NCBI RefSeq assembly: GCF_014495685.1 | Contig: NZ_JACTVI010000010.1 | Span: forward strand, 62,001-126,000 | Direction: 5' to 3' | From: Streptomyces sp. TRM68367 | GTDB taxonomy: Bacteria; Actinomycetota; Actinomycetes; Streptomycetales; Streptomycetaceae | DNA: 64,000 nucleotides | Shown: in pieces, positions 5,313 to 19,872 of the stretch | Position numbering within the stretch: the stretch's first letter is position 1 | Layout of the letters: each line of letters opens with the position of its first letter | The notes under the pieces: model-generated | What the model was told of the DNA's origin: nothing | The model's database searches: none | Seen by the model: the letters and a program-made list of their open reading frames with translations, nothing else | Translations under genes and position numbers: made by a program

Positions 5313-5371
5313 CGATGGCCATGCGGGCCGCGGGTCCGGCTGTGACAGGCGTCCATGTGCCCACGTACTGA

Positions 5372-5393
5372 GACGGGGTCTGGGAGCCCCGTC
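5372..5393 (+). terminator. Possible intrinsic terminator after the FtsW-PBP pair
   Basis: A GACGGGG ... CCCCGTC hairpin with a 7-bp perfect stem and 8-nt loop lies 60 bp after the PBP stop. It has no T-run, which is normal in Streptomyces. It also sits just upstream of the next gene, so it could instead be part of that gene's leader. Confidence 0.4.
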
Positions 5394-5416
5394 CCGCCCG
5401 ACCTATCGTTCGGTCC

Positions 5417-5932
5417 ATGACGACATCAGCCGCCACGGCCGCCTTCGAACTCGCCCAGGTCAACATCGCCCGCCTCAAGGCCCCGCTGGACTCCCCGCAG
5501 TTGAAGGACTTCGTCGACAACCTCGACCCCGTCAACGCCGACGCGGACGCCGCCGACGGCTTCGTCTGGCGACTCAAGGAGGACTCCGGCAACGCGACGG
5601 ACGTCCCCGTGCTCGGGGACGACTGGCTGATCGTCAACCTGACGGTGTGGCGGGACACCGACGCCCTGACGGCGTACATGTACCAGGGACGGCACCGGGA
5701 GATGCTGGCCCGCCGCAGGGAGTGGTTCGAGAAGCTCCAGGAGGCGGTGACCGCCCTGTGGTGGGTCCCCGCGGGCCACCGCCCGACGGTCGCGGAGGCG
5801 GAGGCACGGCTGCTGCACCTGCGGGCGCACGGGCCGACGCCGTACGCGTTCACGCTGCGGACGTCGTTCCCGCCGGGCGCGTCGGAGCCGGTGCTCGGCG
5901 AGGTGCCGGAGGGGCTGGGCTGCTCGGTCTAG
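5417..5932 (+). CDS. DUF3291 domain protein
   Basis: 171 residues. 'FELAQVNIARLKAPLDSPQLKDF' at the N-terminus and the 'SGNATDVP...LIVNLTVWRD...AYMYQGRHREMLARRREWFEK' region are typical of DUF3291, a small dimeric alpha-beta barrel fold related to antibiotic-biosynthesis monooxygenases. The biochemical function of the family is unknown. It is a single gene. Its TAG stop and the TAG of the convergent Uma2 gene share the palindrome CTAG at 5929-5932, leaving no spacer between the two genes. Confidence 0.85.
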   Translation: MTTSAATAAFELAQVNIARLKAPLDSPQLKDFVDNLDPVNADADAADGFVWRLKEDSGNATDVPVLGDDWLIVNLTVWRDTDALTAYMYQGRHREMLARRREWFEKLQEAVTALWWVPAGHRPTVAEAEARLLHLRAHGPTPYAFTLRTSFPPGASEPVLGEVPEGLGCSV

Positions 5933-6534
5933 CCGAAGCGGTTGACAGCGGTGAGATCGATCTCGATGGGGAACGGGACGGTCAGCCTGAGCTTGTCATG
6001 AAAGATGCCGGTGAGGCCGTAGGACTCTGTCGCCGGGTCGATTTCGTAGACGTACACCACCGGGAGACCCTGGTTTTCTTCGACGCGCCAGTAATGCGGA
6101 ATCCCCGCCTGTGCGTACTTCCGTGGTTTCACCTCCCGGTCTCGGTCCTCCGAGTCCGCCGAGACGACCTCGACAGCGATGACCACGTCCTCCGGCCGAC
6201 ACCAAGTCCGCTGCGAATCGGTGTCGGCGCTCGCACGGAGCACCAGGACATCGGGCTCCGGCCGATTGCGCTTGTTCAGCTTGACGGTCATCTCGTGGAT
6301 GACCTTCAGCCCTTCCGGCACCTGCTCCAGAAGGGCGTACGCCAGCAGGAGCATGGCACGTGCGTGGAAGAAGGTCTGCGGACTCACGAAGACGAGACTC
6401 CCGTCGATCAGCTCCGTGTGCGGAGGAAGGTTGGGAAGCTCGTCGAGGTCGTCCGCCGTCCAGCCACCCTCCGGCGGACGGACCCACTCATAGTCCTCGT
6501 CCAGGTCCAGCCCGTGGTCGCGTGCGGCGCTCAT
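5929..6534 (-). CDS. Uma2-family (DUF820) restriction-endonuclease-like protein
   Basis: 201 residues from the ATG at 6534, chosen because GGGAG lies 7 bp upstream; longer in-frame starts at 6546 and 6567 lack this. Family hallmarks are 'HTELIDGSLVFVSPQTFFHARA', 'RPEPDVLVL', 'DVVIAVEVVSADSEDRDREVKPRKYAQAGIPHYWRVE' and a final 'IDL'. These give the PD-(D/E)xK-like pattern (Asp in PDVLV, Glu-x-Val/Lys near 'VEVVS...KPRKY'). The fold is that of a nuclease, but most Uma2 proteins have no proven activity and occur in many stand-alone copies in Streptomyces and cyanobacteria. No toxin-antitoxin partner is visible here. Confidence 0.88.
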   Translation of the reverse strand: MSAARDHGLDLDEDYEWVRPPEGGWTADDLDELPNLPPHTELIDGSLVFVSPQTFFHARAMLLLAYALLEQVPEGLKVIHEMTVKLNKRNRPEPDVLVLRASADTDSQRTWCRPEDVVIAVEVVSADSEDRDREVKPRKYAQAGIPHYWRVEENQGLPVVYVYEIDPATESYGLTGIFHDKLRLTVPFPIEIDLTAVNRFG

Positions 6535-6712
6535 GATTGCTCCCATGTGACGGAGTCTGCCTGGCACAGTCAGCCTACCCGGGGGAATACGCCGATTCGC
6601 CCGACGATCGAGTGATCAACCCGCGAGGCATTGACCTTCCTCGATCGCCGGGGTCAACAAGTGGTGCGCGAGGGATTGACGGGCTTACTGACACGCAGTC
6701 TCATAAAGGGCC

Positions 6713-7151
6713 ATGACAACCCTCACCGAAGCCGACGCGCTCGGCGGGCTGCGCGATGCGCTCGGCATCGAGCCATAGGCGCTGGAGGCCGAGGTGATAC
6801 GGGCAGGCCCAGGGCCCCGACTCTCGCCCCGCGAGGTTGGGGCCCTCCCGTACCAGGCTGCACCCCCGCTGACCAGCAACAACGAGGACGTACTGGAGCG
6901 GCGTGCGCATCGTCCGCGTCCTTCTCACAGCCACGGACGCCACGACGCGGCAGCGCCTCCGACGCCGGGAACTCGGCTCCGAGCTGGAGCGGGAATGGGA
7001 GAGCAGTACCCGCAAGGCACGCTTGCTGGACCAGCGGGCTCCCGCGGACACCGTGCGCGTGATGACGGACGGGAGAACGGTCCCGGACATCGCCCGCGAG
7101 GTGACGTCCGCGACGGGCTGGGCGGAACGGCACCATGCGAGCCCACCGTGA
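6713..7151 (+). pseudogene. Probable remnants of one or two decayed genes
   Basis: The stretch 6535-7307 has no convincing intact gene. At 6713 an ATG opens a 21-codon frame (TTLTEADALGGLRDALGIEP) that hits TAG, yet the same frame continues in coding-like fashion (ALEAEVIRAG). At 6903-7151 another frame encodes 82 residues rich in charged helices with an HTH-like 'DGRTVPDIAREV'. The second piece could be a fragment of a homeodomain-type DNA-binding or transposase protein, but I cannot identify it. The frame changes and stops suggest decay rather than function. Confidence 0.3.
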
Positions 7152-7307
7152 GCGGGCCTGGGACATTCCTTCAGGGCGGCACGGGTGGGCGCAGCACCCC
7201 GCCAGTGGGGCAAGCGCGCACCAACCCCGCCCAGCCACAACACCGGGCACCCGGCAAGCGGCCCAGCCGACGCGGTCCCCCCGCCCCCAGCCGCTACCCT
7301 GCCCGGC

Positions 7308-7955
7308 ATGAGCTCCGCCACCCCCGCCTACCGTCGCCTCAGCGTCGAGGAACGCCGCAGGCAGCTGCTCGACGCCGCGCTCGCCCTCTTCGCTCACCGC
7401 ACCCCCGAGGACGTCTCCCTGGACGACGTGGCGGAGCAGGCCGGTGTCTCCCGCCCCCTCGTCTACCGGTACTTCCCGGGCGGCAAGCAGCAGTTGTACG
7501 AGGCCGCCCTCAGGTCCGCCGCCGAAGAGCTCCAGCAGTGCTTCGAGGAACCTCACGAGGGCCCCCTCCTGCGCCGCTTCTCCAGCGCCCTGGACCGCTA
7601 CCTCGCCTTCGTCGACCAGCACGACGCCGGTTTCAGCGCCCTCCTCCAGGGCGGCAGCGTCGTGGAGACCTCCCGTACGACCGCCATCGTGGACGGCGTA
7701 CGCCGGGCGGCAGCCGACAACATCCTCAGCCATCTCGAGGTGACCAGCCCCGGCCCCCGCCTCCGCATGACCGTCCGCATGTGGATCACGGCCGTCGAGG
7801 CGGCCTCCCTCATCTGGCTCGACGAGGACAAGCAGCCCCCCGCCATCGAACTGCGCGACTGGCTCGTCGAGCAGTTCGTGGCCGTCCTCTCGGTCACCGC
7901 ACGCCGCGACCCGCAGACCGACGAGCTGGTCCGGGTCCTCGCGGAAGATGTCTGA
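7308..7955 (+). CDS. TetR/AcrR-family transcriptional regulator
   Basis: 215 residues from the ATG at 7308; the upstream in-frame extension is proline-rich and unlike the family. The N-terminal HTH is clear: 'RRRQLLDAALALFAHRTPEDVSLDDVAEQAGVSRPLVYRYFPGGKQQLYEAAL', with the recognition helix around SRPLVYRYF. The C-terminal helical ligand-binding domain is of the type common in actinobacterial TetR proteins. No divergent transporter or enzyme flanks it, so its target is unknown. The next gene starts inside its last codons (8-bp overlap), implying co-transcription and probably a shared role. Confidence 0.9.
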   Translation: MSSATPAYRRLSVEERRRQLLDAALALFAHRTPEDVSLDDVAEQAGVSRPLVYRYFPGGKQQLYEAALRSAAEELQQCFEEPHEGPLLRRFSSALDRYLAFVDQHDAGFSALLQGGSVVETSRTTAIVDGVRRAAADNILSHLEVTSPGPRLRMTVRMWITAVEAASLIWLDEDKQPPAIELRDWLVEQFVAVLSVTARRDPQTDELVRVLAEDV

Positions 7956-8265
7956 CACTGGTGCGGTGAAGAGCGAAGACACCCCGTTCGAGGGCGGCCC
8001 CATGGACGGCCGGGTCCTGCCCCTCCTGCTGGGCCCGACCGGCCACCCGCCCAAGACGTACCGCATCCCGGTCCCGGACCCCGACGGCGGCCCGCCCACC
8101 GTCCTCGTCTACCGCCGCGTCCCGAGGGGGCAGGGCAAGCTCGGCCTCACCCGGCAGTGGAAGTACGAGTACGACCCCGAAGGCAAGCACGGCAGCCGAC
8201 TCAAGTGGCCCTGGTCGAAGCCAGACGCCACGCCGCCCGGCAAGCCGGACGACACCGACGTGTGA
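7948..8265 (+). CDS. Small conserved hypothetical protein, TetR partner
   Basis: 105 residues, starting within the end of the TetR gene (ATGTCTGA). It is rich in Pro, Gly and basic residues, with no membrane segment and no recognisable domain. Central features are 'GGPMDGRVLPLLLGPTGHPPKTYRIPVPD' and 'VLVYRRVPRG...LTRQWKYEYDPEGK'. I think this family accompanies the TetR gene in other streptomycetes, but I cannot assign a function. Overlap and same strand support translational coupling. Confidence 0.65.
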   Translation: MSDTGAVKSEDTPFEGGPMDGRVLPLLLGPTGHPPKTYRIPVPDPDGGPPTVLVYRRVPRGQGKLGLTRQWKYEYDPEGKHGSRLKWPWSKPDATPPGKPDDTDV

Positions 8266-8367
8266 CCGATTGCGCCGAACCGCGCACACCCGGCGCGCGC
8301 CCCGCGCGAGCACGTCTGATGCTCGCGGTGCGGAGCGGAGGAGCCGCCCGCTACCGGAGGTGATGAC

Positions 8368-9471
8368 GTGTCAGGAAGGGTTCTGCGCCTGGTCTGTACG
8401 GCGGCGATGGCGGCCGGCACCGCCCTCGCCCAGACGCCCGCGACCGCCGTACCTGAGCCCGGTGAGCGAACCGTGGCTGAGCTGCTGACGGACCTTCAGC
8501 GGCTGTACCGGCAAGCCGAGCGGGCCACCGAGGCCTACAACGCCACCGAGGAGAAGCTGCGGAGACAGCGCGCCGAGACCGCCCGCCTCGAGCGCGCCCT
8601 CGCCCGCGCCCGCCTCTCCCTGCTCGACAGCCGCGCCGCCGCCGCCCGGCTGGCCCGCCAGCAGTACCAGAACAGCACCGACATCTCCCCGTACGTACGC
8701 CTCCTGCTCGCCCGCGACCCGCAGCACGCCCTCGACCAGGGCCATGTGATCGGCCGGTTGGCGCGGGAGCGGGCCGCGACGGTCGGCCGCCTGACCGGCA
8801 CCGAACGCAGGGCCGACGACCTGGCCCGCAAGGCCCGCAAGGCCCTCGACGCCCAACTCGCCCTCACCGAGCGCCGCAAGAAGAACCGCGACGACGTCCG
8901 CAAGAGACTCCACGATGTCGAGGAACTCCTCGCCGCCCTCACCGCCGACCAGCTCACCGCACTCGCCGAGACCGAGCAGAACGACATCGCCGAGTCCCAG
9001 AAGAAGTTCATGGCCTCCGGCGCCCTCAGCAGCACCGCCCGGCCGTCCCGCCAGGGCGACCGCGCGGTGCGCTACGCCCTGCGGCAGCTGGGCAAACCGT
9101 ACGAGTGGGGCGCCGAGGGCCCGAAGTCGTACGACTGCTCCGGCCTGACCTCCGAGGCCTGGTCCCACGCCGGCACCCCCATCCCCCGCACCAGCCAGAC
9201 CCAGTGGGCCCAGCTCCCCCGCATTCCCCTGACCGACCTACGCCCGGGCGACCTGGTCATCTACTTTCCCGACGCCACCCACGTAGCGATCTACGCAGGT
9301 GAGGGCAGAGTCATCCACGCCCCCCGCCCGGGAGAGAAGGTCAAGCGCTCCCCCATCGCATCAAACCCGGTACTTGGCGCCGTGCGCCCGGACCAGCGCG
9401 CCCCAAAGAGCGGGCCCCTTACCCTCGCCCCACCTCATGCTCCCGCCCGTCGGCCCGCGGCAACGGCTTGA
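8368..9471 (+). CDS. Secreted NlpC/P60 peptidoglycan endopeptidase with coiled-coil domain
   Basis: 367 residues from a GTG with a strong GGAGGTGAT Shine-Dalgarno. A signal peptide (residues 1-27, ending near ALAQTPATA) is followed by a long charged coiled coil (about 30-215), as in RipA/PcsB-type hydrolases. The NlpC/P60 domain follows (about 225-345). The catalytic Cys lies in 'YDCSGLTSEAW', the His in 'ATHVAIYAG', and a polar third residue follows in 'VIHAPRPG'. It should cleave D-Glu-mDAP/LL-DAP linkages in stem peptides during growth or division. The C-terminal 25 residues are a Pro/Ala tail. Its 3' end overlaps the convergent Trypco2 gene by 53 bp. Confidence 0.9.
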   Translation: MSGRVLRLVCTAAMAAGTALAQTPATAVPEPGERTVAELLTDLQRLYRQAERATEAYNATEEKLRRQRAETARLERALARARLSLLDSRAAAARLARQQYQNSTDISPYVRLLLARDPQHALDQGHVIGRLARERAATVGRLTGTERRADDLARKARKALDAQLALTERRKKNRDDVRKRLHDVEELLAALTADQLTALAETEQNDIAESQKKFMASGALSSTARPSRQGDRAVRYALRQLGKPYEWGAEGPKSYDCSGLTSEAWSHAGTPIPRTSQTQWAQLPRIPLTDLRPGDLVIYFPDATHVAIYAGEGRVIHAPRPGEKVKRSPIASNPVLGAVRPDQRAPKSGPLTLAPPHAPARRPAATA

Positions 9472-9715
9472 GATCGACCTGAATCCGATGCGTGGAGTCC
9501 CGGCTCACCGAGCCACCCAAGCGCGCCTCGACGACACCCAGCCTCAGCCCCGCCCCGCCATCCCCGGCCCGATGAAACTGCACCGAGAACTCCAGGCTGA
9601 CCTGCTCCACACTGAACCGCCAGTCACTCGCCGCCCCCTCGGCCTGCGCGCGAGCCAACTCCGCCCGCACCGTGCCGATGGCCTCCGCAAGACCGACCGG
9701 TTCCGTATCCCCCAT
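9419..9715 (-). CDS. Trypco2-domain protein (trypsin co-occurring domain 2)
   Basis: 98 residues. 'GLAEAIGTVRAELARAQAEG...WRFSVEQVSLEFSVQFHRAGDGGAGLRLGVVEARLGGS...STHRIQVDLKP' matches the compact alpha/beta pattern of the trypsin-co-occurring domain 2: an N-terminal helix, then strands ending in HRI(K/Q)(V/L)xLxP. The domain was defined by its association with trypsin-like peptidases in NTP-dependent conflict systems. It is divergently transcribed from exactly such a peptidase gene (9806-11131) with a 90-bp shared upstream region. It probably acts as a substrate, adaptor or inhibitor of that peptidase; the role is unproven. Confidence 0.82.
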   Translation of the reverse strand: MGDTEPVGLAEAIGTVRAELARAQAEGAASDWRFSVEQVSLEFSVQFHRAGDGGAGLRLGVVEARLGGSVSRDSTHRIQVDLKPLPRADGREHEVGRG

Positions 9716-9805
9716 GCCAACTCACCACCGAATTCATCCGATTGGCCGATCCAATCTGGTACTGAGTCTAGGGACCCACCCGCTACCCGCGTAGTCTGAT
9801 GAGCC

Positions 9806-11131
9806 ATGGGGGAGCTACGTGCAGACTGGAGACTCAGGCTGCGGCGCGGCGACGCATCCGGCCCGGTCTGCGGCGCCGGCGTGCTCGTCGACCAGCACAC
9901 GGCACTGACCTGCGCCCACGTGGTGCGCGACCCGGACGCCGTCATGTGGCTGGAGTTCGCGGAGAACCGCGAGCTCCAACCGGTGGCCGCACGCGTCCTG
10001 CCCGGCGGCTGGCTGCAGGACGCCCACGGCGGCGAGGACGTCGCCGTACTGCGCCTGGACAGCCCGCGCCCGCAGGCCCGCCCCGCCCCGCTGGAGCCCA
10101 GGCTGTGGGGCGGCATGGAGGTGTCCGCGACCGGCTACGCGGAGGGCTTCGACACCGGCATGACTCTGTGGGGCCGGATCAGCGGGGCCAGTGGCGAGCG
10201 GGTGCAGCTCGACGCCGCGACCAAGGCGGAGGTGGTGCGCAAGGGCTTCAGCGGAGCCGCCGTGTGCACCCGGCCGGACGAGGGACGTCCCGCCCGCGTG
10301 GTCGGCCTCGTCGTCAGCTGGCGCGGCGACATGGGCGAGCTGCTGCCCGAGACCAACCGGCTCGCCTTCTCGTATCTGATCCCCGTCGACCGCATCGCCG
10401 AACTCTCCCCGGTCATCATGGAGCTGAGCAGCCCCGACGCCTGGGATCACGGCTTCGAGAGGCGGCTCGACCGATGGTTCGAGGACCCGGACGAAGACCC
10501 GGTCAAGATCACCGTAGTGCCCTCGGACAGCGGCCGGGACCGCTCGCTGCGCCACCGGCTGCACCGCGCCCACGTCGTCCACCGCGGCGGCGCCAGTCTG
10601 CCGGATCTCACCGGCCACGCCCTGGAGCACATCGCGTTCCCTCCCGGCCAGTTCCTGGCGTACTGGGACTGGCTGCGCGGCATCAAGCACCGCCCCCGGC
10701 AGGTCTCCGCCCTCGCGCCGGGCAGCCCGCCCACGGTCCTCGTCGACGGCCTCGACGCGGAACCCGATCCCGATCCCCTCATCGACCTCCTCGCCCGGCT
10801 GCGGGAGTGCGGCTTGCGGCTGCTGCTCGTCTTCCGGCACGCGGGCGGCACCGGCTGGAACGCCGCCTACGACAGGCTCCTGCGGCCTGCGCTCCGCAGC
10901 CACGCGGACACGCTGCTCGAGCGTCTACAGCGCGCGGAGTTCGACCGCGCGGTCCGCCTCGGCATCGTCGGCAGCGAGTCACTCGGCACCGCGACCGAGA
11001 CGGCCGACCGGCGCCAGGCCGAGCGGCGCCTGATCGGCGATCTGACCGACCCGCAGCAGCAACTCATCCAGCTGCGTGAGCTGATCGCCACGCTCCGCTG
11101 CGACCTGCGGCGCAACAGAGGCCGGGCATGA
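9806..11131 (+). CDS. Trypsin-like serine peptidase with C-terminal degenerate NTPase-like region
   Basis: 441 residues. The N-terminal S1-type domain (1-200) has the triad His in 'LTCAHVV', Asp in 'GEDVAVLRL' and Ser in 'RKGFSGAAV'. There is no signal peptide, so it acts in the cytosol, as expected for conflict-system peptidases. The C-terminal half contains 'PPTVLVDGLDAEPDPDPLIDLLARL', a Walker-B-like strand, without an obvious P-loop. This suggests an inactivated STAND/AAA-type module (inference). It lies 37 bp upstream of a PknG-like kinase gene and divergent from Trypco2. It may cleave a target on a signal relayed by the kinase/vWA proteins. Confidence 0.85.
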   Translation: MGELRADWRLRLRRGDASGPVCGAGVLVDQHTALTCAHVVRDPDAVMWLEFAENRELQPVAARVLPGGWLQDAHGGEDVAVLRLDSPRPQARPAPLEPRLWGGMEVSATGYAEGFDTGMTLWGRISGASGERVQLDAATKAEVVRKGFSGAAVCTRPDEGRPARVVGLVVSWRGDMGELLPETNRLAFSYLIPVDRIAELSPVIMELSSPDAWDHGFERRLDRWFEDPDEDPVKITVVPSDSGRDRSLRHRLHRAHVVHRGGASLPDLTGHALEHIAFPPGQFLAYWDWLRGIKHRPRQVSALAPGSPPTVLVDGLDAEPDPDPLIDLLARLRECGLRLLLVFRHAGGTGWNAAYDRLLRPALRSHADTLLERLQRAEFDRAVRLGIVGSESLGTATETADRRQAERRLIGDLTDPQQQLIQLRELIATLRCDLRRNRGRA

Positions 11132-11168
11132 GACGCCCGGCCGGGCAAGGGAGGAGGACGACGAGCGG

Positions 11169-13475
11169 ATGACGACCTGCCCGCACCGGCGCTTCACCGG
11201 AGCCCCCTGTGGCGGCACCGTCCTGCCCACCGGCTACTGCGCCGAGTGCGGCCGCCACGAGAAGGCCCCCGGGCTGCGCCCACTGCCCGACGACCCACGG
11301 GACCTCGGCCCTCAGGAGCTCCTCACGCTGCCCAAGCGCGAACCGCGCGCCGCCCGGACACGTCTCATCCCTCCCGATGCGCCGCTGCGCATCCGCATGG
11401 GCTGCTCGTCCCCCGAGTGCGGCATCACGTTCGCCCCGCCCTACACCGAGGGCCCGGTGCCGGTAGAGGGGCACTGCCCGGCCTGCGGCGAGCCCTACTC
11501 GTACCGGCCCGACCTCGCCAAGGGCGACGTGCTGCGCGACCAGTACCGGATCATGGGGCCGGTCGCGCACGGCGGCCAGGGCTGGGTCTATCTCGCCGAG
11601 GACACCCACCTCGGTGACATCGTCGCCGTCAAGGGGCTGCTGGACCGCTACAAGCGGGACGGTGCCCGGCTCGCCGACGTCGAGCGCCAGAACCTCGTCG
11701 GCATCCGCCACCCCCGCATCGTCCAGATCCGCGACTTCGTGGCGCGGCGCGACGACAGCGGCCGGGTCACCGGCGGCCACATCGTCATGGACGACGTCGG
11801 CGACGGCACGCTGAAGAAGGTCGTCGAGGAGACCCGGCGCGGGCAGTTCGACCTCGACATCGAGCACGTCGCGGCGTACGGCTGCGAGATCCTCGAAGCC
11901 CTCGGCCATCTGCACGCCGGCGGCAAGGAGGTCTACCTGTACGGGGACATGAAGCCCTCGAACGTCGTGCACCACGGGGACGGCGTCAAGGTCATCGACC
12001 TGGGCGGCATGCGCGAGGAGGGCCAGACGGAGCCGCCCGCCCATGTCACGCCCGGCTACATGGCGCCCGAGACCGAGTTTTCCGGCGTGCTCACCGTCGC
12101 CCACGACCTGCACACCGTCGGCGTCACCCTGCGCGAACTCGCCGGCTGGGCCGTCGACCGGGTGCCCGGCCTCGGCACCGCCTCCTTCTGGTGGGTCGTC
12201 GAGCGCGCCACCCGGCCCGCCCCGGGCCGGCGCTTCGCCGACGCCCGGGAGACGGCGAGCCAGCTGCGGGGCGCCCTGCGGGAGATCCGTGCCCTGCGCG
12301 GCAAGACCGACCCGCCCGAGCCGTCCGACTACTTCTGGCCGTCCCCGCAGCTGCTCGGCGCCCGGCTCGGCACGGTGCCGGGCATCGAGCACTGGCTCGG
12401 CCGCCCCCGCCGCGACCGGTACGACCCGCCCGTGGCCCCCGCCCTCGATCTCGGCTCCCCCACGCCCACCGAGATCGCCCGCTGTCTGCCGGTCCCGAAG
12501 CGCTATCCGAAGGATCCGCAGACCGCGCGGTTCGAGGTGAGCAGCGGCTACGACCCGGGCCAGCTCCTCGCCCAGGACGACGAGAAGCCGCCCTCGGTGG
12601 AGATCTGCCTGCACAACGTGCGTGTCCTGCTGGACCGGAACACGCGGGAGGACCTGGAGCTGGCCCAGGAGGAGCTCGACACCGCAGACGCCATTCCCGG
12701 TCCGCGGGCCGTGCGCCGGTGGCGGCTGGACTGGCACCGCGCACTGGTCGCGCTGCGCCGCGCCGGCCTCGACGCCGACCCGCGCCATGTCGCCCGGGCC
12801 AAGGGCCACTTCAAGGAGGTCATGCTCGACCTGCCCGGTGAGTACGCGCCCAAGCTGGCCCTCGCCTACTGCGGGGAGCGGCTCGGCGACGACCCGACGG
12901 GGCCCACCGCCAAGGAGCTGTACGAGGCCGTGTTCGCACGCAACCCCGCGCACGGCGGTGCCGCCCTCGGCCTGGCCCGGCTGGCGCTGTGCGCGGGCGA
13001 CCGCCGGGCGGCCCTCACGGTGCTCGAGCGGGTCCGCCCCGGCACCCTGGACCACACCGTCGCGCGCATCGCCTCGCTGCGCATCCGCGCGGCCCGGCTG
13101 CCCGGGAACGGCGACGCGCTGCCCGCGCCCGCCGAGGTCGACGCGGCGCTGGCCGAACTGCACGGCCTGGTCCGCCAGAAACCGGGCGCCGGCGAGCCGA
13201 GCCTGTCCGAGGACGAGGCGCTGCGCCTGAGCACCGAACTGCACGAGTGGAAGCTGGACGCGCTGCACAGCCGCAGCGACCGGCCCGGCCTCCCGGAAGG
13301 GGGTGCCAGGCGGCTCGACGCCCGCAGTCTGCGGCGCCTGAGCGCGCAGGAGCGGGAGCTGCGCGCCCAGATGGAGTCGCACTACCGGCAACTGGCCGCA
13401 CGCCACCGGGGGTCGGCCACCCACGAGTACCTCGTGGACCTCTCGCACGCGGTGCGGCCGCAGACCTTTGTCTGA
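11169..13475 (+). CDS. pknG: PknG-like Ser/Thr protein kinase (zinc ribbon, kinase, TPR)
   Basis: 768 residues with the three-part architecture of mycobacterial PknG. First come Cys pairs forming rubredoxin-like knuckles ('CAECGR', then 'CSSPECG' and 'CPACGEPY', about residues 3-115). The kinase domain (about 125-400) has a glycine loop 'AHGGQGWVYLAED', the ATP-binding Lys in 'VAVKGL', the catalytic Asp in 'YLYGDMKPSNVV' and a DFG equivalent 'IDLGG'. The C-terminal region has tandem helices fitting TPR/helical repeats. In mycobacteria and corynebacteria PknG phosphorylates the FHA protein GarA/OdhI that controls 2-oxoglutarate dehydrogenase. Downstream genes match the GlnX/GlnH sensing partners in type and order. 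The protein is soluble. Confidence 0.9.
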   Translation: MTTCPHRRFTGAPCGGTVLPTGYCAECGRHEKAPGLRPLPDDPRDLGPQELLTLPKREPRAARTRLIPPDAPLRIRMGCSSPECGITFAPPYTEGPVPVEGHCPACGEPYSYRPDLAKGDVLRDQYRIMGPVAHGGQGWVYLAEDTHLGDIVAVKGLLDRYKRDGARLADVERQNLVGIRHPRIVQIRDFVARRDDSGRVTGGHIVMDDVGDGTLKKVVEETRRGQFDLDIEHVAAYGCEILEALGHLHAGGKEVYLYGDMKPSNVVHHGDGVKVIDLGGMREEGQTEPPAHVTPGYMAPETEFSGVLTVAHDLHTVGVTLRELAGWAVDRVPGLGTASFWWVVERATRPAPGRRFADARETASQLRGALREIRALRGKTDPPEPSDYFWPSPQLLGARLGTVPGIEHWLGRPRRDRYDPPVAPALDLGSPTPTEIARCLPVPKRYPKDPQTARFEVSSGYDPGQLLAQDDEKPPSVEICLHNVRVLLDRNTREDLELAQEELDTADAIPGPRAVRRWRLDWHRALVALRRAGLDADPRHVARAKGHFKEVMLDLPGEYAPKLALAYCGERLGDDPTGPTAKELYEAVFARNPAHGGAALGLARLALCAGDRRAALTVLERVRPGTLDHTVARIASLRIRAARLPGNGDALPAPAEVDAALAELHGLVRQKPGAGEPSLSEDEALRLSTELHEWKLDALHSRSDRPGLPEGGARRLDARSLRRLSAQERELRAQMESHYRQLAARHRGSATHEYLVDLSHAVRPQTFV

Positions 13476-13542
13476 CCGCACGGCGACGACAGACCGGACG
13501 GCGGCCCAACGCCGTCCGCCCGGCGACGAAGGGGAAGGAGCG

Positions 13543-14952
13543 GTGACGTACGCCATGAGCAGCCGTACCCGGCAGCCGCAGCCCGGCATCCGGTTGCACG
13601 TCGACCTCGACGGCGACCTGCGCCCGCACCGCAGCGCGAAGATCGAGGCACATCTGCGGGTCGATGTCGCCGCCACCGGCGCCCCCGCCGAACTGCCCGC
13701 GGTCGAACTCGCCGTGATCATCGCGGTGGACGTGGCCGAGCGCCACCGGGCGGCGGTCCGGCACGCCCTGCCGTCCGCGCTGCGCGCCCTGCCCGACGAC
13801 ATCTCCTTCACCGTGCTCGGCAGCGGCCCGGAGCCGGTCCGGTGCTATCCGCGGGGCGCGCAGGAATGGGCCGTCGCCGACCAGCACGAGAAGCGCCGGG
13901 CCGCCTTCGCCGCGGGCGCGATCCCGCTGCACCGGGACGGCCCCCGCCCCGCCGGGTACGCCGCCTGGGCGGCCGGCTCACGTGCCCTGCTCGCCGGCCG
14001 CCCGCTGTCCGTACGGCATCTGCTGCTGATCACCGACGGCAGCAGCACCCCGGGCGAGAGCGGGCTGGAGGAGGAACTGGAGGCCTGCACCGGGCAGTTC
14101 ACCTGCGATGTGTTCGCCGTGGGCGCGGACTTTACTCCCGATCCCCTGCTGACCCTCGCCGAACGGCTGCACGGCACCGCCGAGTTCGTGGACGACGGCC
14201 TCGGCCGGGCGATCACCGCCGCCATCCAGCGGCTGCGCCGCGCGCACACTCCCCAGCTGCCGATCGAGGTGACCGTGCGGCCCTCCGTGCGGCAGATCGC
14301 GCTGCACGAGAAGGCGCCCCGGCCGCACCGCCTCGGCGGGCTGCCCCAGCCCCGCCTGCCGAACCGCTGGAGCTTCCCCACCTACCAGTGGGAGCAGGGC
14401 AGCCGCGACTACCTGCTCACGCTCGTCGCCGACGCCGACGCCGACCCGCTGGAGACCGAGCTGCAGTTCGCCATGGTCTCCGTCGGCGACGTCCACGCGC
14501 CGGTCACCGCCCGCTGGCACCGACCCGAGCAGTCGCCGCCACGCGCCTCGGCAGGCAGTTGCACCGTGCCCACCCTGAAGACCACCACCGTGATGCGGGA
14601 GGCCCTGCGCAGGGGACTCGTCGCGCTGCAGGAGCAGCAGTGGGACACCGCCGAACGCTACCTGGGTCAGGCCGCGATGCTGGCGGCCCGGCTCGGCGCG
14701 GAGTGGGTGCTGGAGGAGATCGGCGAGGTCGCCGAGATCGTGGACGCGGCCGCGGGACTGGTCCGGGTGCACACCGGTGTCAACACCGACACGCTCGGCT
14801 CGATGATCCTGCGCGCCGGATCCCGTCCGGGCGGACCCCTCACCGACATCGCCTACCCGTCTCCCGGCCCGCGCTGCAGGCACTGCGGAACCCCGGCCGG
14901 GAGCGAGGCCCGTTACTGCATCGGCATCCGCTGCGGGAAGAGGCTGCTGTGA
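13543..14952 (+). CDS. vWA-domain protein with C-terminal zinc ribbon
   Basis: 469 residues from a GTG preceded by GGGGAAG; an upstream in-frame TTG at 13468 would overlap pknG and lacks a ribosome site. The vWA-like domain begins with 'AVELAVIIAVDVAERHRAAV' (MIDAS-type DxxxR variant, so metal binding is uncertain) and continues through 'RHLLLITDGSSTPG' (the second acidic motif). A beta-rich middle domain and a helical region follow. The last 30 residues form a zinc ribbon 'CRHCGTPAGSEARYCIGIRCGKRLL'. vWA proteins usually scaffold protein complexes. It sits between the kinase and the four-TM protein and overlaps the latter by 4 bp (GTGA). A similar N-terminal Cys-pair module in the kinase hints that the two proteins interact. 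Confidence 0.82.
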   Translation: MTYAMSSRTRQPQPGIRLHVDLDGDLRPHRSAKIEAHLRVDVAATGAPAELPAVELAVIIAVDVAERHRAAVRHALPSALRALPDDISFTVLGSGPEPVRCYPRGAQEWAVADQHEKRRAAFAAGAIPLHRDGPRPAGYAAWAAGSRALLAGRPLSVRHLLLITDGSSTPGESGLEEELEACTGQFTCDVFAVGADFTPDPLLTLAERLHGTAEFVDDGLGRAITAAIQRLRRAHTPQLPIEVTVRPSVRQIALHEKAPRPHRLGGLPQPRLPNRWSFPTYQWEQGSRDYLLTLVADADADPLETELQFAMVSVGDVHAPVTARWHRPEQSPPRASAGSCTVPTLKTTTVMREALRRGLVALQEQQWDTAERYLGQAAMLAARLGAEWVLEEIGEVAEIVDAAAGLVRVHTGVNTDTLGSMILRAGSRPGGPLTDIAYPSPGPRCRHCGTPAGSEARYCIGIRCGKRLL

Positions 14953-16007
14953 CGACCCGACGCGCCGTCTCCTGGCGCACGTACTCCCCGGCCGCTCTCT
15001 GGCGCAGACGCCTGAGCCGCTTGCGGACCCGCCGGCTGCTGGAGGTGCACCTGCTGGTCCTGGCACTGTGCGCGGCCGTCGCGGTGAGTGCGCTGCTCCT
15101 GTCCTCCCGCCACACCCAGCAGAGCGCCCGGGACCTCACCTCGCGGGAGGCGCCCGCCGTGCAGGGTCTGGCCGCGGCCCGGCTCGCGGTGCTGCGTGCC
15201 CGCTGGGAGGCCACGGTCCTGGTGGACCTGGAGCTCGCCGACGTCGCGGGCTCGGGCGAGAACTACCGGGCACAGCTCTCCGCGGCCGACCAGGGGCTGT
15301 CCCGGATCGCGGACCGCACGGACCAGGACCTCGGCACCGTCAACGGCCTGCTCGCCTCCTACAGCCACTTGCTCACCCTCGGCACGGCCATGTACCGCGA
15401 CCAGCCGCTCATGCGGGAGCAGAAGCTCGCCGAGGCGGACTCGCTGCTCATCCGCCCGGGCGTCGGACTCGTACCCCGGCTCGACCAGCTCCAGCGGGAG
15501 CAGATGCGGCGGGCCGGGGACGTCGCCGGCATGGGGTGGGTGCAGCGCGGCGGCTGGTGGCTCGCCGAACTCGCGCTGGCAGCCCTGGCGCTGACCCTGC
15601 TCTCCGCGCTGTTCGTGCTGCGCGACCGCTGCGGCCGCGACTGGAACCCGTACCTGCTCGCGGCCTTCGCCCTCACCGTGCTGCTCGCGGTCGTCCCGCT
15701 GCTGACGGCGTCCTCCGCGCAGCACGACCTCGCCGGCGTGCGCGCGGATCTGCAGCAGATCACCACGATCTCCGAACAGCGCTGCTGCGACGCGGAGTCG
15801 GTCGAGCCGCGGAAGATGGTCACGGCGCTGACCGAGGCACAGCGGAAGGTCACGGCGAAGTCCGAGCACATCCGGCAGGAGCTGGCCGATGGCAGCTGGG
15901 CCGACAGGGCGTACCAGGGCACGCTGATCGGCGGCCTGCTGCTCGTCGTCCTGCCCGCGGTGGGGCTCGGTCTCCGGCTCGACAACGACTACTGGAGGCG
16001 ACGGTGA
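14949..16007 (+). CDS. Four-TM membrane sensor-like protein (GlnX-like position and topology)
   Basis: 352 residues. Membrane segments at about 30-52, 203-225, 236-257 and 322-344 place two helical extracytoplasmic regions outside: about 53-200, and 260-320 including a vicinal CC in 'SEQRCCDAES'. This four-helix-bundle topology is that of mycobacterial GlnX, which spans the membrane between the solute-binding protein GlnH and kinase PknG. Start GTG and stop codons overlap both neighbours by 4 bp, so stoichiometric production of sensor complex subunits is likely. There is no enzymatic domain. Function by analogy: relay ligand binding outside to the vWA/kinase inside. Sequence orthology to GlnX is not established here. 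Confidence 0.72.
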   Translation: MTTRRAVSWRTYSPAALWRRRLSRLRTRRLLEVHLLVLALCAAVAVSALLLSSRHTQQSARDLTSREAPAVQGLAAARLAVLRARWEATVLVDLELADVAGSGENYRAQLSAADQGLSRIADRTDQDLGTVNGLLASYSHLLTLGTAMYRDQPLMREQKLAEADSLLIRPGVGLVPRLDQLQREQMRRAGDVAGMGWVQRGGWWLAELALAALALTLLSALFVLRDRCGRDWNPYLLAAFALTVLLAVVPLLTASSAQHDLAGVRADLQQITTISEQRCCDAESVEPRKMVTALTEAQRKVTAKSEHIRQELADGSWADRAYQGTLIGGLLLVVLPAVGLGLRLDNDYWRRR

Positions 16008-17284
16008 CCCGGCCGTTCAAGCTGCTGGTGTTCCTCGTGGTGCTGCTGCTGGTCTCGGGCGGCAGCCTGGTCGCGGTCTGGGCGCAGCGCGACGACGAGA
16101 ACCCGGTGACCATCCTCGGGCCCTGGACGGACACCGAGGAGGAGCATTTCGAGGCCGTGCTGCGCGAGCTGGGCATCCCCTTCGACTACCAGGGCACGGC
16201 GGCCCAGCGCGAGGTGCTGCTCTCCAAGGTGCAGGCGGGCGAGCCCCCGGACATCGCGATCATGCCGGGCGTCGGCGAACTCGCCGAGTACGCCGGCCAA
16301 CGGCTCCTCCAGCCGCTGGACGACCTGGTCGACGAGGACGAGTACGGCTCCCCCTGGCAGTCGGTGAGCAGAACGTCCGACTACGTGTACTGGGTCCCGG
16401 TCAAGGCGGACCTGAAGAGCATCGTCTGGTACCGACCGGGCAACAAGCCCGCCGCCGCACCGGCACCGATGGAGAGCTGGTGCATCGGCATGGGGGACGC
16501 CGGCGCCTCCGGCTGGCCCGGCAGCGACTGGATCGAGGACCTCGTGCTGCAACGGGAGGGCCCGGACATCTACGGGAAGTGGGCGCTGGGCGACGAAAGG
16601 GTGCCGTGGACCGGGGATGCGGTGCGCACTGCCTGGGAGGCGTGGGCCGGTCTGCTCCGGCAGAACCGGAAGGCGACCGGGCACGCCCTGCGCACCGATC
16701 GCCGCGGCGACCCCGACGAGGACAGGAACGGGCTGCTGTTCTCGGGCCGGGGCGGGTGCACCCTGGAGCACCAGGGCTCCTTCGCACCAGCCTTCTACAA
16801 CGAGCATCCCGTGGGCCTGGCCGACTCCGCACCGCTGCTTCCCGGGGGCCCTTACCAGGTCCGCGCCCACGAGGTGACCGGCGACTTCGCCGCGCTGTTC
16901 AGCGACCGCGCCCCGGCCCGCAAGCTGATCGAGAAGCTCGCCTCCGCGGAGGGCCAACGCAAGTGGGCCGAGTTCCCGGACGTCTTCTCGGCCAACCGCC
17001 TGGTACAGCCGAAGAGCGGCCGGATCGGCGACGCGATCGCCGCCCGCCTCACCGGCAGGGGCCCCCGCTGCCTGGACGCCTCGGACGTGATGCCCCCCGC
17101 CCTACGGGACGCCTTCTACGAGGCCACCCTTCTGACCATGGCCAGAATCGCCGCCGGAGAGGACCCCGACATCCCCCACCTCCTGGCAGACCTCCAGAAC
17201 ATAAAGAGATCCCAGCCCACCAACAGCGCATCCCTGCGAACGGTATGCAGCAGCGCCTCGAAAGGGGCGCGGGGCTCTGCCTGA
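16004..17284 (+). CDS. Membrane-anchored extracellular solute-binding protein
   Basis: 426 residues, overlapping the previous gene by GTGA. An N-terminal hydrophobic anchor (about 6-27) has no lipobox cysteine, so it is either a signal anchor or a cleaved signal. The rest resembles family-1 ABC substrate-binding proteins: 'VTILGPWTDTEEEHFEAVLRELG', 'EVLLSKVQAGEPPDIAIMPGVGELAEYA', and a C-terminal 'ASAEGQRKWAE...GFVSANR'-type segment. There is no permease or ATPase gene nearby, so it is probably a sensor component rather than part of a transporter, as GlnH is for PknG in mycobacteria. GlnH belongs to a different (type 3) binding-protein class, so the ligand may not be an amino acid. Confidence 0.82.
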   Translation: MTRPFKLLVFLVVLLLVSGGSLVAVWAQRDDENPVTILGPWTDTEEEHFEAVLRELGIPFDYQGTAAQREVLLSKVQAGEPPDIAIMPGVGELAEYAGQRLLQPLDDLVDEDEYGSPWQSVSRTSDYVYWVPVKADLKSIVWYRPGNKPAAAPAPMESWCIGMGDAGASGWPGSDWIEDLVLQREGPDIYGKWALGDERVPWTGDAVRTAWEAWAGLLRQNRKATGHALRTDRRGDPDEDRNGLLFSGRGGCTLEHQGSFAPAFYNEHPVGLADSAPLLPGGPYQVRAHEVTGDFAALFSDRAPARKLIEKLASAEGQRKWAEFPDVFSANRLVQPKSGRIGDAIAARLTGRGPRCLDASDVMPPALRDAFYEATLLTMARIAAGEDPDIPHLLADLQNIKRSQPTNSASLRTVCSSASKGARGSA

Positions 17285-17360
17285 TATGCGGCTCCGCCGC
17301 GTGGGCGCGACAAGCCACAGACAACCCGCAGCCGCCAGCGCCCCCGCGCCCCTACGGCGA
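17284..17360 (+). repeat. Streptomyces intergenic repeat, second copy
   Basis: Directly at the 3' end of the solute-binding gene lies ATGCGGCTCCGCCGCGTGGG followed by a GCGCGAcAAGCCAC-type segment and a CCGCGCCCC end. It is the reverse-complement relative of the stretch at 38061-38162, and the family is common after Streptomyces genes (from memory). It abuts the MITE-like element that follows. Confidence 0.5.
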
Positions 17361-17528
17361 CTAGTGCCACGACAGGCAACGTTTGCGCGTCAAGGAGCGG
17401 CGTCCGGTGCGTGCTCTCGGCGTGCCGGCCGGAAGCCCTCGTACTGGACGCACTTGGGCTTTCGGCCGGTGCGGCGAGAGGGCGTGCCGGGCGTCGCGAC
17501 GGGGCGAACGTGCCTGCCGGGCCACTAG
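17361..17528. mobile_element. MITE-like element flanked by CTAG
   Basis: A 168-bp stretch begins CTAGTGCCACGACAGGCA and ends TGCCTGCCGGGCCACTAG, which are imperfect inverted repeats. The homology continues inward for nearly the whole length to a central hairpin (GAAGCCC...GGGCTTTC). CTAG occurs at both ends (17361-17364, 17525-17528) and looks like a target-site duplication of IS5-type transposases. It has no coding capacity. The right CTAG supplies the TAG stop codon of the flavin monooxygenase gene. Similar sequences are, to my memory, repeated in many Streptomyces genomes. Confidence 0.7.
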
Positions 17529-18778
17529 GCCCCCATAACCGACCCCAGATACGCCTCGGTCCTGGAGGGCTCGTAGAAGTACTCCTCAAAATCCGCCGGA
17601 TCATTGAACCCATTGGCGAAACGATCAGCCACCGGCTGAAGCTCTCCCGCCGCCCCCACAAGGTTCAGCACATGCTCCGGCGGCGGAGCCAGCATCGCGT
17701 TGGTCCACTTCGTCACATGCTGCGCGGTCTCCCAGTACCGCTCGAACGTCCCCCGCATCCACTCCTCGTCGAACGGCTTGTCCCCGTGCTCGAGAATCGA
17801 CGCGAGATACGCCGCCGCACACTTCGACGCCGAGTTGGACCCCTGCCCGGTGATCGGGTCGTTGGCCACCACCACGTCGGCGACACCGAGGACCAGACCG
17901 CCGCCCGGCAGCCGCCCGACAGGATTCCGCACGGTCGGGGCGTACCGCCCGGACAGCACACCCCCCGCGTCGGTCAGCTCCGCCTTCGTGGCCCGCGCGT
18001 ACTCCCACGGAGTGAACCGTTCCATGAGTTCCAGGGTCAGGGAGAGGTGCTCCGCCTGGTCCTTCACACCGTTGAAGACATCGAGCGGACCGCCAGGTAT
18101 GCCCTCCCAGAACAGGATGTCGGCCCGCCCGGACGTGGTCAGGCACGGCATCACGAACAGCTCACCGACGCCCGGCACCAGATTGCACCGCACGGCCTCC
18201 ATGTCCGGGTGCTCCGGCCGGGGCCCGAGCCCGTGCACGTACGACACGGCCAGCGCCCGCTGCGGCTCGCTGTACGGCGACCTCGACGCGTCGCGCCCGA
18301 ACATCTGCACCAGCTCGCCCTTGCCGGCCGACACCAGGACGAGGTCGTACGTACGGGAGAAGTAGTCGAGGTCGCCGACCGCCGCACCGTGGATGACCAG
18401 CTGGCCGCCGCGCTGGGCGAAGGTCTCCATCCAGCCGGCCATCTTCACCCGCTGGTCGACCGACTGCGCGTGCCCGTCGAGCGTGCCCACCCAGTCGATC
18501 GCGCGCGCCGCGGGGCCCTCGGCCCAGGAGCCGGGGGCGGCGACCGAGACGCCGAGTCCTTCGATCTTCGGGGCCTGGGACTCCCAGAAGTTCAGCTGGA
18601 GATCGCGCTCGTGCTGGAGGGCGGTGTGGAACATGCACTGCGTCGACATCACCCGGCCGGTACGGATCTCGTCCGCGGTCCGGTTGGACATCAGGGTTAC
18701 CTCGTACCCGTGCGACTGGAGGCCGAGGGCTATCTGGAGGCCGGACTGGCCGGCCCCGACGACGAGTATCTTCCGCAT
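17525..18778 (-). CDS. StyA-type FAD monooxygenase associated with the conservon
   Basis: 417 residues of the styrene/indole monooxygenase (StyA) oxygenase-like family. The N-terminus is an FAD-binding Rossmann motif 'ILVVGAGQSGLQIALGLQ'. Further family features are 'TQCMFHTALQHERDLQLNFWE' and 'ADVVVANDPITGQGSNSASKCAAAYLASIL', the second FAD-binding region. Such enzymes need a reductase partner to supply FADH2; none is adjacent. It lies 43 bp downstream of cvnD on the same strand, in the place where other conservons carry a cytochrome P450, so it is probably the output oxidoreductase of this conservon. The substrate is unknown. Its stop codon is formed by the flanking CTAG of the MITE. Confidence 0.88.
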   Translation of the reverse strand: MRKILVVGAGQSGLQIALGLQSHGYEVTLMSNRTADEIRTGRVMSTQCMFHTALQHERDLQLNFWESQAPKIEGLGVSVAAPGSWAEGPAARAIDWVGTLDGHAQSVDQRVKMAGWMETFAQRGGQLVIHGAAVGDLDYFSRTYDLVLVSAGKGELVQMFGRDASRSPYSEPQRALAVSYVHGLGPRPEHPDMEAVRCNLVPGVGELFVMPCLTTSGRADILFWEGIPGGPLDVFNGVKDQAEHLSLTLELMERFTPWEYARATKAELTDAGGVLSGRYAPTVRNPVGRLPGGGLVLGVADVVVANDPITGQGSNSASKCAAAYLASILEHGDKPFDEEWMRGTFERYWETAQHVTKWTNAMLAPPPEHVLNLVGAAGELQPVADRFANGFNDPADFEEYFYEPSRTEAYLGSVMGA

Positions 18779-18821
18779 ACGGGCTGTCTCCCCTGTTCTG
18801 GTTTTCCGGACTACGGCGTGC

Positions 18822-19472
18822 CTATTCGGGAGTTTCCTCCAGCGCGTGGGCCACGAGGGCCAGGAGGGTTTCGATCACCGAGATCCGGCGCCGCGCGTCC
18901 ATGATCATGACAGGTATGTGTGCGGGAATCGTGAGGGCCTCGCGCACGTCCTCCGGCTCGTACAGCTCGCTGCCGTCGAAGTGGTTGACCCCGACGACGT
19001 ACGGCAGCCCGCAGCTCTCGAAGTAGTCCAGCGCCGGGAAGCAGTCCTTCAGACGGCGCGTGTCCGCCAGGACGACCGCGCCGATCGCGCCGCGCACCAG
19101 GTCGTCCCACATGAACCAGAACCGCTGCTGGCCCGGCGTGCCGAACAGGTACAGCACCAGGTCGTCGTCGAGCGTGATGCGGCCGTAGTCCATGGCCACG
19201 GTGGTGGTGAGCTTGCCGGGCGTGGCGGTGAGGTCGTCGGTGCCCTCGCTCGCCTCGGTCATCAGCGCCTCGGTCTGCAGGGGCGTGATCTCCGAGACGG
19301 CGCCGACCAGCGTGGTCTTGCCCACGCCGAAGCCGCCGGCGACGACGATCTTCGTGGCGATCGGGGCGCGGGTGCGGTCCGTCTGCCACGATTTCAGGTC
19401 CTCGTCGGGCTCGGCGGCAGCGACGAGCGGGGAGACGCCACGACGAGCGGCATCAGAGACGACGGAGTCCAC
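18822..19472 (-). CDS. cvnD: Conservon small GTPase CvnD
   Basis: 216 residues from GTG. The P-loop GTPase has a G1 motif 'GGFGVGKTTLV', a switch region 'ATPGKLTTTVAMDYG', a G3-like 'FGTPGQQRF' (DxxG replaced by GTPG, typical of this family) and a G4-like 'VNHFDG' in place of NKxD. These proteins resemble MglA-type GTPases and are thought to act in a membrane-proximal complex with CvnA-C analogous to G-protein coupling. It overlaps cvnC by 20 bp. Confidence 0.95.
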   Translation of the reverse strand: MDSVVSDAARRGVSPLVAAAEPDEDLKSWQTDRTRAPIATKIVVAGGFGVGKTTLVGAVSEITPLQTEALMTEASEGTDDLTATPGKLTTTVAMDYGRITLDDDLVLYLFGTPGQQRFWFMWDDLVRGAIGAVVLADTRRLKDCFPALDYFESCGLPYVVGVNHFDGSELYEPEDVREALTIPAHIPVMIMDARRRISVIETLLALVAHALEETPE

Positions 19473-19872
19473 TCAGCACCCTTTCCAGCAGAGCGCGGTC
19501 CGGACGGCCGGTGCCGTGACCGGTCCCGGTGCCGTACACACGGATCTTTCCCTGGTCCGCGAGGTCGCTCAGGAGGACGCGGACCACGCCGAGCGGCATG
19601 TTCAGCAGCGCGGCGATCTCAGCCACCGTACGCATGCGGCGGCACAGTTCGACGATGGCCCGCATCTCCGGCATGACCGCCGACTTCAGCGCACCGTTCG
19701 TCAGTTCCCTGCGCTCCTCCGGGGCGTCCAGCGCCGCCACGAAGGTCTCCACGAGGAGGACGTGGCCGAAGCGGGTACGGCCACCGGTGAGCGAGTAGGG
19801 GCGTACGCGGGCGGGCTTGCGGTCGCCGCCGCGGACCGAGAGATGCGTTTTGTTGTTCGGTGCGCTGCTCAT
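19453..19872 (-). CDS. cvnC: Conservon DUF742 protein CvnC
   Basis: 139 residues. The DUF742 signature is present: 'RVRPYSLTGGRTR', then a winged-helix-like 'MRTVAEIAALLNMPLGVVRVLLSDLADQGKIRVY'. The family is an HTH-like adaptor within conservon complexes, binding CvnB/CvnD rather than acting as a proven DNA-binding regulator. It overlaps cvnB by 4 bp and cvnD by 20 bp, so the operon is translationally coupled throughout. Confidence 0.95.
   Translation of the reverse strand: MSSAPNNKTHLSVRGGDRKPARVRPYSLTGGRTRFGHVLLVETFVAALDAPEERRELTNGALKSAVMPEMRAIVELCRRMRTVAEIAALLNMPLGVVRVLLSDLADQGKIRVYGTGTGHGTGRPDRALLERVLSGLRRL

Follow-up and report, generated by a model that had tools for sequence, protein, structure and literature searches.

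A PknG-GlnX-type gene cassette of Streptomyces that may link a tethered carbohydrate-type binding protein to an intracellular trypsin-like protease

The window analysed here, a stretch of 64,000 nucleotides from Streptomyces sp. TRM68367 (contig NZ_JACTVI010000010.1), contains a cassette of six open reading frames (ORFs) at positions 9419-17284. A gene for a Trypco2 protein on the minus strand is followed, on the plus strand, by genes for a trypsin-like protease, a PknG-like kinase, a vWA protein, a GlnX-like protein with four transmembrane (TM) segments, and a solute-binding protein (SBP). The reading frame is uninterrupted in all six, and they exceed chance expectation; ORF and family searches confirmed the gene set proposed in a first-pass annotation of this DNA, namely a kinase, a four-TM protein and an SBP, with a vWA protein added and a peptidase and a Trypco2 protein preceding. 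Judging from homology, gene order and shared ancestry, we conclude that the cassette is probably a paralogue of the PknG-GlnX-GlnH sensory system, one that has diverged from it and is self-contained.

On sequence evidence we also think it rather likely that these proteins form one signalling pathway, which would lead from the SBP through the GlnX-like receptor and the PknG-like kinase to the protease. The membrane-tethered, carbohydrate-type SBP would capture an external ligand and, once loaded, would dock on the first helical-bundle domain of the receptor. The four TM helices would then carry the signal inward to the kinase, which would receive it through its TPR domain and, with the vWA protein as an adaptor, would control the cytosolic protease encoded just upstream; that is, the protease would replace the PP2C/FHA output of the canonical operon. 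The class of the ligand, control by that ligand, the direction of the signal, and the protease as its output, along with the targets of the protease, are what we infer from the arrangement of the parts. A more specific proposal, in which an external glycan acts via the tethered SBP, the GlnX-like bundle and the PknG-type kinase to switch an intracellular trypsin, and in which the protease was grafted onto a subunit of the PknG complex, is tentative, and we lean slightly against it as a complete account.

Kinase, receptor and binding protein

The kinase gene (11169-13475, plus strand) encodes two Cys pairs that may form a zinc knuckle or rubredoxin-like domain, a Ser/Thr kinase domain (with the motifs YGDMKPSN and DLG) and a PknG-type TPR domain. 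Both PF16918 (PknG_TPR, E = 3.3e-32) and PF00069 (Pkinase, E = 1.8e-18) score above their cut-offs, and the best solved relative is PknG (2pzi, E = 3.3e-64), in agreement with the first assignment of this protein as a PknG-type kinase with TPR. Both Cys pairs align with those of canonical PknG; PF16919, for the rubredoxin-like zinc domain, scores 19.6 versus a cut-off of 28.5. The catalytic Lys, Asp and Asn and the DFG-type Asp are retained in all 22 kinases from the cassette genomes described below, and the second Cys pair in 15 of them. The cassette kinases all fall on one side of a single branch (37 versus 24 rows, SH-aLRT 99) in what is a quick tree with long branches.

The same genome also holds a canonical pknG operon (G000:C230, locus L079), with glnX, glnH, a coiled-coil gene, pknG, and genes for PP2C, vWA and FHA proteins, where the PP2C, FHA and coiled-coil labels were read from the sequences. 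The canonical glnX scores 517 bits. This operon, at 6181-16965 of the locus (G000:C230:100000-119500), apparently has seven genes, including a vWA protein with an intact MIDAS and, as the last, an FHA/zinc-ribbon protein; the accessible portions of the PknG literature name three. The vWA gene of the cassette (13543-14952, plus strand; PF13768, VWA_3, E = 1e-31) encodes a protein with a C-terminal zinc ribbon, and its better start is the GTG at 13543, preceded by GGAAGGAG, the alternative being the TTG at 13468. The cassette protein aligns with the vWA protein of canonical operons across most of its length. The proposal that this gene was inserted into a mycobacterial-type arrangement must thus be abandoned: because the canonical Streptomyces operon already holds a homologous vWA gene, its presence is ancestral. 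The MIDAS motif, DxSxS, is retained in 13 of the 16 cassette vWA proteins, and lost in that of the window and in two relatives.

The four-TM protein (14949-16007, plus strand) is, by profile comparison and structure prediction, homologous to GlnX, with a second outside domain that appears degenerate. Four hydrophobic segments were found in this protein, and each of the 22 cassette proteins likewise has four in its GlnX-like part. The NCBIfam GlnX model matches it with E = 1.1e-5 (24.8 bits; the curated cut-off of the subfamily, 250, is not reached). Of 25 GlnX-like proteins that were aligned, it matches 17, the lowest E-value being 3.1e-35. Pfam gave no family above cut-off for the window protein, and only stray matches among the 25, with one member each for three families. 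Profile-profile alignment with hhalign, against a profile of the 25 best canonical GlnX proteins, yields E = 1e-18 (probability 99.1, 199 columns). The whole canonical profile, when reversed, still yields E = 0.0025 (probability 11.7), i.e., TM composition alone can produce a weak signal. A comparison restricted to the first outside loop avoids this problem, and gives E = 1.8e-9, to be compared with 0.031 for the best of 100 column shuffles and 0.32 for the reversed loop. Control profiles of the SBP, vWA, kinase and trypsin proteins match GlnX with E = 0.18 or worse.

The second outside loop has no profile match to loop 2 of canonical GlnX. It comprises about 71 residues in the window protein, and 3 to 80 across the 22 cassettes, compared with 146-175 in canonical GlnX (counted over the 23 of 25 rows that showed all four segments). 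In an AF2 model, which is all-helical (pLDDT 89.3, pTM 0.80), the first outside domain is a helical bundle and the second a helical hairpin; of the two four-helix-bundle outside domains of GlnX, only the first is present. The best structural match to the outside bundle (Z = 16.4, 1.6 Å over 116 residues) is to the XylFII-LytS complex, 5xsj, namely to its chain L, which is presumably LytS, given its length of 122 residues. Further matches include TorS in complex with TorT (Z = 12.2), McpS and Tar; many rows in the match list are generic helical bundles. As reported in the accessible portions of PMC9769921, LytS (5XSJ) ranks with the strongest matches to each of the two outside domains of Corynebacterium glutamicum GlnX, and docking of the SBP is discussed there on the basis of LytS. 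The first-pass annotation, which described a GlnX-like protein with two outside loops, had proposed a comparison with GlnX. The four TM segments, the profile similarity and a top fold match that is shared with GlnX all support this relationship.

The SBP (16004-17284, plus strand) is of the SBP_bac_1, carbohydrate type (PF01547, E = 1.4e-10), as are 24 of 25 aligned members. It is therefore not GlnH-like at the level of the family, as had been supposed, since GlnH is of the amino-acid type, SBP_bac_3; canonical GlnH, used as a query, matched none of the 80 SBP loci described below and all 6 control loci. Its solved relatives in profile searches are mostly sugar-binding proteins, AcbH being the first (E = 2.5e-8), and its AF2 model (pLDDT 86.4) has Z = 35.2 against AcbH, 33.8 against a xylo-oligosaccharide SBP and 33.4 against a glucose SBP. 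Because dinucleotide binders sit lower in the list of structural matches, the ligand is likely, but not certain, to be a carbohydrate. The window protein is predicted to be membrane-anchored, with an N-terminal TM segment and no lipobox Cys; a Cys at a lipobox-like position was seen by eye in 17 of the 25 aligned members.

A permease profile with a held-out recall of 26 out of 30 revealed no permease-like ORF in one operon with the SBP, either among the 80 related loci or among the 22 cassette loci, and the view that the SBP is an orphan, with no transport partner encoded alongside it, is upheld. Permease-like ORFs occur in 3 of the 22 cassette loci (G013, G036 and G048), on the opposite strand, except for one in G013 that lies past the upstream end. 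On the contig of the window, the nearest BPD_transp_1 match is about 42 kb away.

The trypsin-like protease and its Trypco2 neighbour

The protease gene (9806-11131, plus strand; Trypsin_2, PF13365, E = 6.1e-12) ends 37 bp before the kinase gene. The window protein keeps an intact His-Asp-Ser triad, as do 74 of the 77 rows aligned, which were drawn from two overlapping sets. In the trypsin of L110, from Streptomyces calvus, the triad Ser is aligned as Gly (GFGGA), and this protease is possibly inactive. The window protein has no hydrophobic segment over 1.5, and no signal or TM segment; together with the fusions to the kinase described below, this places the protease, by prediction, in the cytosol. 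Its C-terminal region (residues ~170-440) includes a Walker-B-like VDGLD and an LLLVFR stretch, with no Walker A pattern found in any of the trypsin proteins, and is perhaps an inactive NTPase-like domain. A phmmer search of the window trypsin against solved structures gave no match.

Canonical pknG is preceded by the gene for a coiled-coil protein, and in 28 of 57 trypsins a C-terminal stretch of ~60-160 residues matches the C-terminus of that protein (E = 2.7e-12 for the best single-sequence match); with a profile of this tail, all 28 matches in the 80 loci fall within trypsin ORFs. It seems, given this match, that a protease was joined to a subunit that the PknG operon already had, in the same gene slot. 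The tail of the window trypsin has been lost or has diverged past detection.

The Trypco2 (trypsin-co-occurring domain 2) gene (9419-9715, minus strand; PF19631, E = 2.8e-26) is the only Trypco2 match in the genome, and it shares the 90-bp intergenic region at 9716-9805 with the divergent remainder of the cassette. Among the 56 trypsin loci with room upstream, 28 have a divergent Trypco2 gene at 73-168 bp from the trypsin match; across the cassette genomes it is optional (8 of 22). The early suggestion that a peptidase and its co-occurring domain belong to the kinase system thus gains support for the peptidase, which is present in 56 of 66 loci and is fused to the kinase in some; Trypco2 is not a constant partner. 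The case that the protease belongs to the proposed pathway is strengthened by the fusions and by the conserved gene order.

Recurrence, fusions and gene order

A search of 100 relatives with the four-TM protein gave matches in 12 genomes, of which two were false: L022 and L023, weak matches in G041 and G074, were rejected as no cassette gene was found adjoining. Following second copies of PknG led to 12 more cassette genomes. The cassette is found in 22 genomes, i.e., in 21 of 61 sampled from the genus and 1 of 15 from the same order, both of which are lower bounds. Within these 22, the kinase, the GlnX-like protein and the SBP were found in all, the trypsin in 20, the vWA protein in 16 and Trypco2 in 8; the profiles used for these counts included their own matches, and hence the E-values are not independent. 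A scan of genome contigs with the SBP revealed at least 577 relatives, the best 80 of which were analysed, from Streptomyces, Amycolatopsis, Solihabitans, Streptoalloteichus, Streptosporangium and a Pseudonocardiales bin. The sets of 22 genomes and 80 loci overlap in several genomes, and their counts are not additive. Judged by these searches, the cassette is conserved in Streptomyces and related soil bacteria.

The order of the genes is preserved. A GlnX-like gene lies upstream of the SBP gene in 79 of the 80 loci, with match ends no more than 354 bp apart, and in 6 of the 80 the two form a single ORF, which corresponds to at least three events. The kinase was seen in 71 loci; the other nine have less than 2.5 kb of DNA upstream of the SBP. 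When the count is limited to loci whose sequence extends 8.5 kb or more beyond the SBP on its upstream side (65 of the 80, plus the window), the trypsin is present in 56 of 66, and in 8 of 66 it forms a single ORF with PknG, through at least two events on an SBP tree that is quick and has long branches. A homologue of the genes flanking the window cassette was found in 1 of 82 loci, which indicates that the conserved unit ends at the cassette boundary. In a class-wide survey of 394 genomes, where up to four candidates per genome were scored and the count is thus a lower bound, the SBP was found at 348 bits or more in at least 20, the next score being 250. Among 18 further loci, a GlnX-like gene lies beside the SBP in 14; it does not in L233 nor in the lower-scoring L234-L236.

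The vWA protein goes together with a separate trypsin. It is present in 47 of the 48 loci with a separate trypsin, in none of the 8 with a fused trypsin and in none of the 10 without trypsin. Ten further loci agree (seven separate with vWA, one fused without, two trypsin-less without), one of which, L221, seems to repeat L137. This pattern suggests, as a lead only, that the vWA protein couples the protease to the kinase in the cassette. In L220 (8514-10736) and L221 (8103-10358, both plus strand), a further kinase-like ORF lies divergently beside the trypsin-less cassette.

In two hybrid loci from outside the genus, L102 (~3837-11156) and L231 (2498-9766), the coiled-coil protein, kinase and vWA protein are canonical in kind, GlnX is of the cassette type, the SBP is SBP_bac_1 and there is no trypsin; the kinase of L102 groups with non-cassette kinases. 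It thus seems that GlnX and the SBP travel together as a sensor module. Additional GlnX/GlnH/PknG clusters with canonical-type SBPs occur in L096-L100 and L103 (family f20), with up to six GlnX match segments per genome; PknG sensor modules have thus multiplied within that family. In L014 (genome G047, ~8340-17959, minus strand), the cassette is the immediate neighbour of a canonical pknG operon, at the end that holds the FHA and vWA genes.

In the window, the genes are closely packed, with operon-like 4-bp overlaps (GTGA) at the vWA/glnX and glnX/SBP junctions. No sigma-70-like promoter or terminator was found in 9000-17600, a result that is weakly informative for a high-GC actinomycete. The source genome is 9.67 Mb in size, and the named closest relatives in the SBP-based scan are Streptomyces. 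The neighbours of the cassette are unrelated to it, with NlpC/P60 and TetR genes upstream and a FAD monooxygenase and a conservon-type cluster downstream. This cluster (a NIT-domain histidine-kinase-like protein, a roadblock protein, DUF742 and a GTPase), followed by a styrene-monooxygenase-like FAD protein, occupies 17525-23164.

Alternative readings and relation to known systems

A number of observations weigh against the pathway as we propose it. A clade without trypsin (10 of the 66 loci) keeps the kinase, GlnX and SBP, and the sensor part can therefore do without the protease. The vWA rule, reduced to five independent contrasts, has four in favour, none against and one tie (p = 0.125), and the vWA protein occurs without trypsin both in canonical operons and in L102 and L231, which indicates that docking of the trypsin is not its ancestral task; the window copy, moreover, has DVAER in place of DxSxS. 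Three trypsin rows depart from the triad, namely that of L110, with Ser to Gly, and those of L117 and L138, in which no triad is visible. The coiled-coil C-terminus was not detected in the trypsin of the window itself (best E = 0.01-0.03). A Foldseek search with the whole GlnX-like model gave no match at E = 0.001 or better. Six of the 80 loci have a permease-like ORF at some position, and in two of them it lies no more than 3 kb from the SBP: L175, at 867 bp on the opposite strand, and L154, at 2463 bp on the same strand, with a weak match (E = 1.4e-11). Lastly, PP2C and FHA genes were found at none of the 80 SBP loci in single-sequence searches whose limited recall, 3 of 6 canonical controls for PP2C and 5 of 6 for FHA, qualifies this absence, and one of the 22 cassettes, that of G047, does adjoin an FHA gene, which is that of the canonical operon.

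Some of these points would fit a second PknG nutrient sensor, in which the kinase phosphorylates an FHA protein of the GarA/OdhI type encoded elsewhere and tunes central metabolism to sugar, with the trypsin as an accessory that turns over components. This reading would explain why the PknG TPR domain and catalytic residues are retained and why a trypsin-less clade exists, and a canonical operon does coexist in the same genome. We nevertheless consider it unlikely: fusion of the trypsin with the kinase has arisen at least twice, trypsins are also joined to a portion of a canonical-operon subunit, and neither FHA nor PP2C genes were found at the SBP loci. About equally improbable, in our estimate, is a conflict or cell-death system, in which the SBP senses glycans released from the cell wall or derived from an invader, and the kinase gates an effector made up of the trypsin and Trypco2. 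Trypco2 was indeed defined beside trypsin-like peptidases of conflict systems, according to the accessible portions of PMC7159879, and the cassette is patchily distributed, in flanks that are not conserved. However, PADLOC matched the kinase domain only, and none of the other five cassette proteins; the optional occurrence of Trypco2 in the 22 loci is unfavourable as well; and the two MoxR-type (AAA_3) matches of the genome are on contigs C267 and C24, away from the window on C2. This alternative departs from the pathway proposed here, as far as the sequences indicate, in purpose more than in mechanism. It is very improbable that the SBP serves a carbohydrate importer with a distant permease, its linkage to the kinase being incidental, for although its fold and family are those of importer SBPs and two loci have a permease-like ORF within 3 kb, neither of these ORFs adjoins the SBP in one operon, a GlnX-like gene precedes or is fused to the SBP as described above, and it is the lower-scoring SBPs of L233-L236 that have no GlnX adjoining.

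If the protease is the output of the pathway proposed here, the cassette would represent a form of transmembrane signalling with no counterpart in the literature searched: a molecule outside the cell may switch the activity of an intracellular protease, i.e., proteolysis would be under outside-in control. We found no description of the cassette in literature on PknG with trypsin, vWA or SBP in Streptomyces and actinobacteria, a search in which coverage of subscription journals was thin; the papers that it did bring up were PMC6069109 and, from 2005, a survey of kinase architectures (PMC1262709). The contacts between GlnH and GlnX, and between GlnX and PknG, were assumed and still undemonstrated in 2022, as stated in the accessible text of PMC9769921, and the natural SBP-GlnX and protease-PknG fusions make such contacts directly testable.

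The closest known system is PknG-GlnX-GlnH(-OdhI/GarA) of mycobacteria and corynebacteria, with which the cassette shares a homologous PknG-TPR kinase, a four-TM GlnX and an orphan, membrane-tethered SBP in one operon; it differs in having SBP_bac_1 rather than SBP_bac_3, a degenerate second outside domain in GlnX, and an added protease. With the canonical Streptomyces operon it shares homologues of pknG, vWA and glnX, and in about half of the cassette trypsins the C-terminus is a surviving part of the coiled-coil protein. In contrast to that operon, the cassette has its own kinase clade, a trypsin and sometimes Trypco2, and PP2C, FHA and GlnH were not found. TorS is a histidine kinase. XylFII-LytS and TorT-TorS, which are among the best structural matches, likewise feature a helical-bundle receptor domain that is read by an SBP. 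LytS, too, is a histidine kinase (as given in the accessible portions of PMC9769921), whereas the receptor of the cassette seems to pass its signal to a soluble Ser/Thr kinase that is a separate protein. Finally, the MoxR-vWA (VMAP) ternary conflict systems resemble the cassette in having an intracellular trypsin beside Trypco2, plus a vWA protein; the cassette, on the other hand, has no MoxR near the window, its vWA protein comes from the pknG operon, and its sensor is a transmembrane SBP-GlnX pair.

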